Positions 13,546 through 61,548 of a stretch of DNA of 64,000 nt are shown piece by piece. Below the pieces are notes generated by a model, which was not told the origin of the DNA, did not search any database, and saw only the letters and a list, made by a program, of their open reading frames with translations. Position 1 is the first letter of the stretch; every line of letters starts with the position of its first letter. Made by a program: the position numbers and the translations under genes. This DNA comes from Symmachiella macrocystis (GTDB lineage Bacteria > Planctomycetota > Planctomycetia > Planctomycetales > Planctomycetaceae): positions 4,189,490 to 4,253,489 of the forward strand of contig NZ_SJPP01000001.1 in assembly GCF_007860075.1 (NCBI RefSeq), written 5' to 3'.

Positions 13546-13851
13546 GGTTGTGCTCCTTGAATCCTATTTTCCAAAATGGTGATCAGCGCGTTTCCACAGC
13601 GTGGTTCGCCGACGCGGCCGACCGGCCGCTACTGAGTGCAAAATCCAATATGCCTTGAAGTATGGCGATTCAAACTCGACTTGCAAGCGTTACAGGTGCG
13701 CAGTTTCTTCTTCGGCCCAAGTTGCTTAGAATGGCGGCGGCCGAGGGTGATTGCGAACCGGAAAGTGGATGTGTAGGTCATTTAATTCCGGGGGACAGCC
13801 CTGTTCTCGGTCCTCGAATTTCGTATCTGGTTGTGGAAGTTGTCGTGAGTT

Positions 13852-32696: not shown

Positions 32697-32883
32697 CCGT
32701 GTTCCTAGAGTCAAGAATGGTGCAACCGTCTGACGCCCCGCATATTAGTCGTTGCACCAGCAGCCTCACACTGTTGCGGTTTTCACTGCCGATTGATTTG
32801 GTATGATCTCCCCGCCGATCCCGCACAGGGGCCGCGCGGATGCGATCTTGAGTCGCACATCCCAAACCATCGTCGAGAACCAC

Positions 32884-32957
32884 TTTCAAAACCCGGTTGA
32901 GCTTGTTCTGGAAACTTGCAGATCAGTGTCAGCGAGACGCTGCAGAGGGTTTTGAAA
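32884..32957. repeat. 74-bp dispersed repeat, copy 1
   Basis: The element is bounded by perfect 11-bp inverted ends: TTTCAAAACCC (32884-32894) and GGGTTTTGAAA (32947-32957). It matches a 74-bp stretch at 61016-61089 at 64 of 74 positions by hand count, with identical length. The copy lies immediately upstream of the DHDPS-family gene start at 32984. No coding function. It resembles a small miniature inverted-repeat or REP-type element. Confidence 0.8.
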
Positions 32958-32983
32958 CGAATTGCAGTGAAAGTGCCGTGATT

Positions 32984-33925
32984 ATGAACAACTCGGAGGA
33001 TCCAGATACATCGCAAGTTGGACTGCGGGGCATGATGCCGATTCTGCCCACAGCGATCACTCGCGATGGTGCTATTGACGAAGCGAGCCAGCGGCGGTTG
33101 GTGCAATACTGCCTGAAGTGCGGCGCCGTGGCGATTGGCCATTTTGGGATCGCTTCGGAATTTCACAAAATCCCCGACCATGCCCGGCAGAGTTTGACCG
33201 AGATGATTGTCGACGAAGTGGCCGGCCGCGTGCCGGTGTTTCTCGGTGTCACTGCTCCGGGGGTCGGTACCTCGCTGAACTATGCCCGCCAAGCCGAACA
33301 ACTTGGCGCGGATATGATTATGGCGGCGCTGCCGTATGTCGATCTGCCCGATGCGGAGGGCGCCTTCGACTATTATGCGTCGCTGTCGGAGGCAACCACA
33401 CTGCCAATCATCATCCAAGACACCCCCGCTAGTTCATCGATTCTGACGGCCCAGTTATTGTGGCGGATGGATCAAGAGATTGCCGGCGTACAACACGTCA
33501 AAGCCGAAGGCAAAAACTTTGTCACCAAGACTGCACAGCTGCTGGAACTTTCCGGCGGGAATATCTCGGTGATCGGCGGCGCGGGTGGTAAGCACTTGCT
33601 GCATCTGTTGCGCTTGGGTGTCACGGCATTCATGACCGGGACCGAAGCCCTCGACCTACACGCCGCCGCCGTTCACGCACATCTTGAGGGCGAGACGGAG
33701 CAAGCGGCCAAGATTTACGTGGAACAGATTCTGCCGTACTTGCAGTTTTATCTGGACTATTCCGAGGAACTACTCAAAACGATGCTGCACGAGCGTGGCG
33801 TGATTGATTGCCCTGACGTGTTGGCTCCCCCAGCAGCGGCGGCGATGAGCGCCGTGGAACAAGCGGAGTTGGATTGGATCCTGGACCGCATTGGTTGGCG
33901 AAAACATTGGCCGAACATCCCCTAA
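32984..33925 (+). CDS. DHDPS-family (class I) aldolase
   Basis: The 313-residue protein (from ATG 32984) belongs to the dihydrodipicolinate synthase / N-acetylneuraminate lyase superfamily, whose members form a Schiff base with Lys. That Lys is Lys173 in HVKAEGKN. The GxxxE motif appears as GIASEFHKI (55-63). Other landmarks are GRVPVFLGV and AALPYVDLP. The reaction may be synthesis or cleavage of a keto acid such as dihydrodipicolinate, sialic acid or another sugar acid, and cannot be assigned from the sequence. An open frame upstream to 32897 runs through the 74-bp repeat and is rejected. It is the only metabolic gene in this stretch. Confidence 0.85.
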   Translation: MNNSEDPDTSQVGLRGMMPILPTAITRDGAIDEASQRRLVQYCLKCGAVAIGHFGIASEFHKIPDHARQSLTEMIVDEVAGRVPVFLGVTAPGVGTSLNYARQAEQLGADMIMAALPYVDLPDAEGAFDYYASLSEATTLPIIIQDTPASSSILTAQLLWRMDQEIAGVQHVKAEGKNFVTKTAQLLELSGGNISVIGGAGGKHLLHLLRLGVTAFMTGTEALDLHAAAVHAHLEGETEQAAKIYVEQILPYLQFYLDYSEELLKTMLHERGVIDCPDVLAPPAAAAMSAVEQAELDWILDRIGWRKHWPNIP

Positions 33926-36335: not shown

Positions 36336-37415
36336 TCAAAATTCTTCGGAGATCCGTTCCTGGCCATTGCGAGTGGCCAATGCATTGAGAATGGTTTTGT
36401 CCATCGTCTTGGCTAGCGGACGAGCGGAACCGTCGACGAAGAAGAAGTTCACCGCATCACCGTGAAAACTGCCGAAGCCAAAATATGTGAAAACCGCGTT
36501 TCTATCGGGAATCGGATGATTCTCTTCGTCGTCGACATCGTCTACGTCATCGCCGTCGTCATCGACATCGGGAATATCATCCATCTCCCAACCCGCTTGG
36601 AAGGGGGCGCTGTACCAGTCCCAAAGTTTTTGATCCCTTCCATTTCGCAAGGGGTCGTTTTCGCTGTAAGTGTCGTCCATGCGGGGGACACGGGCACAGC
36701 AGGAGAGGGCATCGCCCCAAAAACCGAACCGGCTTTCTCCGAAGAGAATCGTCATCGTAGTTCCATCCGTGCAATCTCGATCGCTGTAGGTACTATTCAT
36801 ATTCATCATCCCATTGTCGGCCGTGTTGCCCATGCAGCCGCGATAGGTTGCGTAGCCCAACTCGCCGGCGCGCTGGTCGGGGAGTGTTGCGCTGGGGCAG
36901 ACATAGGTGGGAATCACCATTTGAATGCCCTGCAGGTTGTAGTTCGTTGATTTTGGCTCGTTAAACTTGAGGTTCACCGTGCCTTGATCCATCTCCGAGA
37001 GCAGGAACGCTTGCCAACCCCACATGTAGGATACGCTCCATTTGTTGGAGCCTGTCGGAAGGTCCAGGTCAACCTCGCCGGTGGGGTGTGGTCCATTAAA
37101 ACCCGCAACGATGCCATAACTCGCTGGCGTGGCAGGATTCTGATACTCCTCGAAGTAGTCGCCTTGAATCCAACCCGGCGGAAACGTGTTGTACGTCGAG
37201 AGGTAGTTATGGGAGGCGATGCCAATTTGGTGCAGATGATTTAAGCATTGCGCGCGGCGAGCCGATTCACGCACCTTTTGTACGGCCGGCATCAACAGGG
37301 CAATCAGCAAGGCAATGATGGCGATCACCACCAACAGTTCCACCAGGGTAAAACCTTCGCGGATTGTCTGCCGCGGAAGCCAAATCTTGCGAACGCGTCG
37401 TCGATTCATCATCAT
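36336..37415 (-). CDS. DUF1559 protein with prepilin-type N-terminus
   Basis: The 359-residue protein has the planctomycete DUF1559 architecture. The N-terminus has a basic stretch (residues 1-20), then a prepilin-type cleavage site at Gly21-Phe22 in [18 protein letters not shown], with the conserved Glu at position 5 of the mature protein. The C-terminus carries [18 protein letters not shown], typical of the family (the H-X9-DG motif). Three consecutive ATGs precede the frame; TTGGAGA lies about 9 bases upstream. Near residue 290 an Asp-rich stretch ([15 protein letters not shown]) resembles a calcium-binding loop. The family is exported and expanded in planctomycetes; its function is poorly known. 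Confidence 0.9.
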
Positions 37416-60946: not shown

Positions 60947-61548
60947 TACGGACTCCTTGATTCGATAGACAGCGGTATCGGCTGTATGCAGGATGGCACA
61001 AATGCCTAGAATTAGTTTCAAAACTCGGTTGCGCTTGCTCCGGAAACTTGCAAATCATTCTCAGCGAGATGCGTCAGAGGGTTTTGAAACGATTTGTCGT
61101 GGCACAACCACTCTAAAATGTTACGTTGCTCTTGGTGAATTCCGCGCACAATCCTATTGGATTTGTGCTCGTCCAATACAAAACAACCTGACATCACAAA
61201 GTGAATGCTGCACCAGTACTTGAATTCAGTCAAAAGGGTGAGGAGCTTCAAACGACACAGAGCGCATGGGGCTTGCCCAGCTATGCGGCACCACCGGATT
61301 CGATGAAAAATCGAGTGGAAGGACAACATCTACTTGGCTTATCGAGAAAACTCCATCGATGCCATCAACACGGCGACCGAACCCCGTAGATCTAGACGAA
61401 CTGAGGCGAATGAACGAACCGCCTGATTTCACCTAATCCGAACCAAGCATTCGACCCGCTTGAAGGCAGCGCGTGATTTTATTCGGGCTGCGTAGTTTAG
61501 GGAAGTCCATCACAAAATTGCCCCTAAGTTTTCCCGACAAAAGGAATT
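60947..61548. other. Intergenic region with 74-bp repeat
   Basis: Contains the second copy of the dispersed repeat (61015-61090) and the promoter of the 605-residue protein gene. From 61200 to 61450 the plus strand has weak coding-like stretches, for example PVDLDELRRMNEPPDF near the right end, which may be decayed gene fragments, but no intact frame was found. Confidence 0.5.
61015..61090. repeat. 74-bp dispersed repeat, copy 2
   Basis: The core 61016-61089 has the same length as copy 1 (32884-32957) and matches at 64 of 74 positions by hand count. Ends are GTTTCAAAACTC and GGGTTTTGAAAC, a 12-bp inverted repeat with one mismatch. It lies upstream of the 605-residue protein gene on the minus strand. 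Confidence 0.8.

Follow-up and report, generated by a model that had tools for sequence, protein, structure and literature searches.

An 88-bp palindromic repeat family of planctomycetes, read as a MITE with a candidate IS5-family partner

Related small repeats and the element in the window

The described systems closest to the element reported here are RUP of pneumococcus, the ERIC/IRU and Correia/NEMIS repeats, the IS427 group of the IS5 family, and the REP/REPIN sequences with their RAYT transposases. RUP (107 bp, IS630-Spn1) is alike in having about 100 intergenic copies of about 100 bp, a TA target and, in the same genome, an insertion sequence (IS) with similar ends; the likeness is one of description, and the partner proposed here is IS5/IS427-like rather than IS630. 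ERIC/IRU (127 bp) and Correia/NEMIS share TA termini, target duplication and a stable stem-loop, and ERIC likewise occurs in several genera. In contrast, the present element measures 88 bp, belongs to planctomycetes, has a candidate IS partner and combines a hypervariable apex with a near-constant length. The IS427 group agrees in its 2-bp duplication, in its ends (NAACCAGTTTCAAAACC) and in the two-frame transposase found in the candidate partner, whereas the element lacks coding capacity and the palindrome formed by its arms is more exact than that of the IS ends. REP/REPIN sequences are also intergenic palindromes of about 100 copies with variable stem sequence and conserved pairing; unlike them, our element has a 2-bp duplication and a length of 88 bp, and no tyrosine transposase flanked by it was seen. 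Other palindromic repeats of REP type occur in planctomycetes according to the part of PMC3733652 drawn on here. No description of the element was found in the literature searched, which included few subscription papers; set beside the described systems listed first, it is classed here as a new family of MITEs.

The window is a stretch of 64,000 nucleotides of Symmachiella macrocystis DNA. An earlier note on it had reported two copies of a 74-bp repeat, at 32884-32957 and 61016-61089, identical at 64 of 74 bases. Both were found at these positions with this length, both are bounded by the inverted repeats TTTCAAAAC/GTTTTGAAA, and with a 77-nt query they match at 87%, in agreement with the hand count. 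The number of copies had been greatly underestimated: of the 96 candidates from a genome search with copy 1, 40 were scored and gave at least 41 matches in 40 copies, and 33 elements genome-wide, nearly all of 74 bp, show TTTCAAAAC and GTTTTGAAA exactly, separated by a gap of 41-71 nt. A reversed control pattern with the same gap gave none in the whole genome; the repeat is thus far beyond chance. A covariance model (CM) built from 37 copies of this genome yielded 129 matches at E ≤ 10; with 150 of 2614 candidates scored and opposite-strand duplicates removed, at least 107 distinct places remained at E ≤ 1e-3.

The 74 bp proved to be the core of a longer unit. When 37 distinct copies were aligned with their flanks, conservation read CTA-GAACCAG-[74]-CGACTTG-TAG and ended at the TA; since it reaches 7 bases past the core on each side, the unit consists of 88 bp plus a duplicated dinucleotide. 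In the consensus, the outer arms are complementary over 11 bp and the tips partly so. Copy 1 occupies 32877..32964 of the forward strand (CM score 104.8, all 98 model positions). Its arm A (32877..32899) comprises the tip GAACCAC, the outer stem TTTCAAAACCC and the conserved GGTTG; arm B (32943..32964) comprises the conserved CAGA, the outer stem GGGTTTTGAAA and the tip CGAATTG. The flanking dinucleotides are GA on the left (32875..32876) and CA on the right (32965..32966). In the congener G001, CA flanks the orthologous copy (L142) left and right; the original duplication at copy 1 was therefore probably CA. Copy 2, on the same strand, occupies 61009..61096 (CM score 103.1), is flanked by TA (61007-61008) and TC (61097-61098), and has its counterpart at G001:5687961-5688058. 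The element is non-coding, shorter than 200 bp, multi-copy and intergenic, as is expected of a MITE.

Matches at E ≤ 0.01 were found in 7 of 40 genomes searched with the CM, including its own. With at most 103 candidates scored per genome, and a few matches possibly representing the opposite strand of one copy, they number at least 100 in the window's own genome (G000), at least 103 and 87 in the congeners G001 and G002, and 29, 9, 2 and 1 in G020, G022, G006 and G018. A class-wide search under stricter filters, in which 10 candidates were scored per genome, gave matches at E ≤ 1e-4 in at least 9 of 397 genomes (own included); these represent 7 genera, all from the window's own family. In a collection of 84,980 species, the exact two-arm pattern was met in 34 stretches, all from records titled Planctomycetaceae, Planctomycetales, Planctomyces or Planctomycetota. 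Although the pattern permitted 34-50 bases between the arms, 34 of the 35 matches, among them many sister copies of single genomes, span 70 bases and one spans 69. A similar exact arm pattern had no match in viral contigs, and one G001 copy had none in plasmid records. As a separate observation, a stretch inside an ORF of the window (37169-37357) has many repeats in G001 and G002, probably reflecting a shared N-terminal protein motif.

Insertion sites and the candidate partner

Mobility was assessed by setting 850 kb of this genome against 800 kb of the syntenic congener G001, which is 83-94% identical over large matching pieces of one 19.5-kb stretch. Among the 14 copies of this genome in the compared stretch, 10 have a counterpart in G001, three have none and one is unmappable; of G001's 20 copies, 10 are shared, eight are absent here and two are unmappable. 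Both window copies are common to the two genomes. Another 400 kb of G001 allowed 8 of 46 copies from this genome to be mapped: five are shared, one site is empty (L057), and two hold 85 and 63 bases not called as copies. Filled and empty sites differ by a net insert of 90 bp, of which 88 bp are the element and two the duplicated dinucleotide, in most cases TA. At the G001 copy 6027550, the filled site reads TAT-TA-[element]-TA-GGAAAC and the empty one TAT-TA-GGAAAC; at G001:5737036-5737133, the filled site reads TTC-AA-[element]-AA-GGC, and the window has the single AA of TTC-AA-GGC on the reverse strand (13645..13664). The G001 copy 6052615 fits the same pattern with few substitutions, and at L057 in this genome the net difference is again 90 bp, the left flank no longer being TA. 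The remaining sites lacking a copy are less clean. At least two of them (G001 5447376; this genome 4072113) still carry part of an arm or of the palindrome, which indicates later deletion and not a site that was never filled.

The target-site duplication is established by these filled and empty pairs. Among 98 copies, the flanking dinucleotide is TA in 66 cases on the left and in 55 on the right, and both sides are equal in 50. Non-TA dinucleotides stand on both sides of 22 copies, five of them equal (AA, TC, CA, CA, TT), which taken alone is not beyond chance (shuffle mean 2.4; reached in 862 of 10000). A repeat of two copies only, with neither duplication nor terminal conservation, had been named in the earlier note as the picture that would speak against a mobile element; instead, we found more than a hundred places, a 2-bp duplication and conserved ends. 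The proposal that the repeat is mobile is further borne out by filled and empty orthologous sites and by an IS with nearly equal ends in the same genome.

This IS is present at two loci (L319 and L323), with lengths of 927 and 918 bp and 88.7% identity. One reading frame carries DUF4096 and an overlapping one DDE_Tnp_1; the two halves of L323, which alone were compared, scored 104.2 and 109.9 against the NCBI IS5 model NF033580, just under its cut-off of 110. The ends of the IS start with CAACCAGTTTCAAAAC and [CG]AGCCAGTTGCRAAACC, and its two copies are flanked by TA/TA and GA/GA. Paracoccus elements of the IS427 group (IS5 family) mostly have 2-bp duplications and two overlapping ORFs, as stated in the portions of PMC3281130 used here, and at about 0.83-0.87 kb they are slightly shorter than our candidate. 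The two overlapping ORFs and the 2-bp duplication place the candidate in the IS5/IS427 group. The four IS ends agree with arm A of the element at 13, 15, 15 and 16 of 17 bases and with arm B at 11, 13, 11 and 14 of 17; when detected copies were masked in 1.65 Mb, five sites on either strand reached at least 15 of 17 for arm A or B. Judged by these matching ends, the IS qualifies as a putative autonomous partner in the same genome.

Three observations count against this IS as the mover: the tip of arm B (CAAGTCG) fits the IS ends less closely (11-14 of 17), the IS ends are less palindromic than the element arms, and G001 has insertions that are absent here, yet no such IS was seen there among the 26 of 31 DDE_Tnp_1 loci examined. 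A tblastn search with the IS proteins over all loci examined returned L319, L323 and, weakly, L318, and nothing else. The IS may have been lost from G001, or another enzyme may act there. On balance, the IS5-family (IS427-like) IS of this genome is the likely mover, and we infer from the similarity of the ends that the element is moved by this IS or by a related one that has since been lost.

The other candidates fared less well. Integrase-core (rve) transposases were rejected, as none of 9 loci had matching ends. The IS630/Tc1-mariner kind would make the element a RUP-like MITE brought into TA by an IS630 transposase. Duplications other than TA, such as AA and GA, are unusual for IS630, and we count them against this explanation. 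Genes with PF13358 do exist, one in this genome and three in G001, and a TA duplication with terminal inverted repeats is what the consulted part of PMC2229807 gives for IS630 MITEs such as RUP. Nevertheless, at none of 19 PF13358 loci in four genomes do element ends (GAACCAGTTTCAAAACC) stand on both sides, the best single-end matches there carry 4-6 mismatches in 18, and G022 holds elements without any PF13358 match; we therefore regard an IS630 origin as very improbable.

A longer, gene-bearing version with a gene in the apex was also looked for and not retained: paired ends up to 3 kb apart were scanned in 1.65 Mb, and three pairs exceeded 160 bp, namely a weak pair, the ends of two adjacent copies paired crosswise, and a 191-bp relative at 4274819. 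The single ends left over in the 1.65 Mb and the loci examined (32 of 36 listed) appeared by eye to be mutated or partial copies or chance matches; eight exact single-end matches outside the CM matches of this genome were, by eye, solo ends or unrelated sequence. Between two pairs of copies 2-3 kb apart lie ordinary-looking genes, the ORFs being read by eye.

Some further elements deserve mention. L108 contains two small elements (1590-1667 and 2468-2613) of other lengths, whose ends TACAACCAGTTTCAAAACTG/TAGAATCAGTTGCAAAATCGC are by eye nearer still to the left end of the IS5-like IS than those of the 88-bp element. G001 harbours a second IS (L342 1008-2065, L343 1087-2066) with DDE_Tnp_1, a 297-aa ORF and the ends TTGCCTTGTTGAAAAC; in two of five G001 copies compared it is inserted within the AACCAGTT tip of the palindromic element, as if the element end were its target.

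That the repeat is a MITE family, and as such an ordinary kind of thing, is well supported. In detail, an IS5-family (IS427-like) transposase would recognise the two facing ends of the non-autonomous 88-bp element and carry it, in DNA form, to a TA dinucleotide (at times AA, CA or TC), which a 2-base staggered cut would duplicate; the inserted copy would have no evident host function and would decay. We give this reading as a whole a probability of roughly 0.6.

Hairpin structure and length

The earlier note's suggestion of a structured element found support between genomes, where the stems co-vary. Within this genome alone, covariation is nearly absent (RNAalifold, 1 of 15 pairs), and the RNA folding of the two window copies, proposed there as a check, was carried out and is unremarkable (z -1.60 to 0.09). 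The cross-genome alignment A3 comprises 44 copies in 13 genome groups, G000 and G001 forming one group and G002, of the same genus, counting as its own; three divergent G022 copies of 47, two of them 77-bp variants, were omitted. In A3, 97.1% of 615 pair cells are standard; shuffles give 84.7%, and sliding the partner gives no more than 59.0%. The covariation score is 0.365 versus 0.137 in the control, and 8 of 14 pairs show changes on both sides, a count that 5 of 500 shuffles reach; the other four pairing and covariation measures are reached by none of 500. Note that the pairs were counted on the RNAalifold consensus of the same alignment, which somewhat favours structure in all these values.

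Between groups, the internal loop GGTT/CAGA reaches 98% identity and the outer stem 86%, against 60% for the tips, 55% for the inner stem and 42% for the apex; the inner stem still pairs in 94% of its cells. Several stem types with matched arms coexist in one genome, and others were found elsewhere (G244 TCCGAAAACC, G159 TTTCATAACC, G293 TCCCAAAACC). Despite the diverging apex, the length is nearly constant: among copies scoring at least 50, 98 model positions are occupied in 48 of 55 copies of this genome, in 15 of 18 in the G001 stretch and in 11 of 11 in loci L076-L099.

Two size variants and a motif were noted alongside. L080 and L086 (G022) have the same type of ends and a different interior in 77 bp, i.e. 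11 bp less or about one helical turn. The relative at L161 (G000:C1:4274819-4275009) measures 191 bp (142 bp in G001) and has a GGGTGCCACTG...CAGTGGCACCC hairpin nested within it; many IS copies in G001 are bordered by a motif of similar kind.

A covarying stem with an invariant internal loop would also suit an element of the REP/REPIN kind that a tyrosine transposase of RAYT/IS200 type moves in the form of a single-stranded DNA hairpin, and Y1_Tnp genes are present in all 10 element-bearing genomes searched. However, REP units of 20-40 are much shorter than 88 bp, the clean empty sites show a 2-bp duplication, and none of the 30 Y1_Tnp loci examined (of 77 matches) is flanked by the element on both sides; it lies within 3 kb at two of the 30, once over the 5' end of the gene. 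Moreover, the orientation of 55 copies shows no significant bias relative to GC skew (p = 0.24). A tyrosine transposase thus appears improbable as the agent, and of the earlier label "MITE or REP type" the mobile, structured and MITE parts stand, and the REP type finds no support.

Returning to an element moved by a DDE transposase, paired changes are also expected if both facing ends have to fit one enzyme; consequently, covariation alone is no proof that the hairpin itself is read. On the other hand, a loop more conserved than the tips lies outside what plain MITE theory predicts, and a hairpin-read or length-gauged mechanism is made worth testing by an asymmetric loop that does not vary, by the presence of several matched stem types and by the constant length. 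The machinery would then read a hairpin with the GGTT/CAGA loop and a length of about 88 bp, so that the element would move as a folded object whose stem and apex may drift freely as long as pairing and length are kept; this we consider possible, if rather doubtful. In fixed copies the loop decays like its surroundings (differing at 15 of 81 positions), and the constraint therefore seems to act on mobility and not on the host: source copies must probably retain the shape, or two facing sites, in order to move.

Placement, decay and meaning of the copies

Judged by a simple codon-usage gene caller, 56 of 58 copies scoring at least 35 are intergenic, against 83% coding sequence; the other two overlap predicted gene starts. 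The intergenic copies lie in 33 tandem, 20 divergent and 3 convergent gaps, distributed much like the intergenic bases themselves (58%, 32% and 10%). In G159, one element (L297 1413-1510) overlaps the 5' end of a Y1_Tnp gene of IS200 type. In 11 orthologous pairs, the element is identical at 963 of 1140 positions (84.5%) and its 100-bp flanks at 1960 of 2189 (89.5%). Nine orthologous pairs differ at 67 of 381 positions in the inner part, at 33 of 162 in tips and flanking dinucleotides, and at 18 of 216 in the outer stem.

Copy 1 precedes a DHDPS-family gene (32984..33925, forward strand; PF00701, E 3e-26; ATG at 32984). The distance of 26 bases given for it holds when measured from the 74-bp core and shrinks to 19 for the 88-bp copy. 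A promoter-like site upstream (32780..32807, forward strand; a consensus match alone, 1 found against a shuffle mean of 0.3) would place copy 1 in the 5' leader of this gene. The suggested effect on its expression gained no support, as copy 1 is common to the congener with 9 of 98 positions differing and the copies track intergenic space; from its position, an influence is possible.

This leader position, the covariation between genomes and the slow change of the outer stem relative to the inner part could be taken as signs of a regulatory or terminator RNA hairpin with a host function, selected at each site. The slower decay of the outer stem may, however, be a detection bias, the elements diverge more than their flanks, and in copies that stay in place the invariant loop changes much as the inner part does. 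The placement of the copies mirrors the intergenic base composition and does not favour convergent gene ends, and the stem is not followed by a T-run. Rfam covariance models, by which a known structured RNA family was rejected, gave no match at gathering score and chance-level ones only (E 3.8-8.3). Since, in addition, the other genome lacks a counterpart to 3 of the 14 copies here and to 8 of the 20 in the congener stretch, selection at each site is extremely unlikely.

The MITE reading gives planctomycetes a family whose candidate IS partner can be named; these sequences thereby become annotatable and are no longer unexplained intergenic palindromes. What lifts the element slightly above an ordinary MITE is the combination of the IS5/IS427 candidate partner with a strongly conserved fold. 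If the hairpin reading were true, it would be a miniature element of the DDE type in which the shape as well as the tips is under selection.
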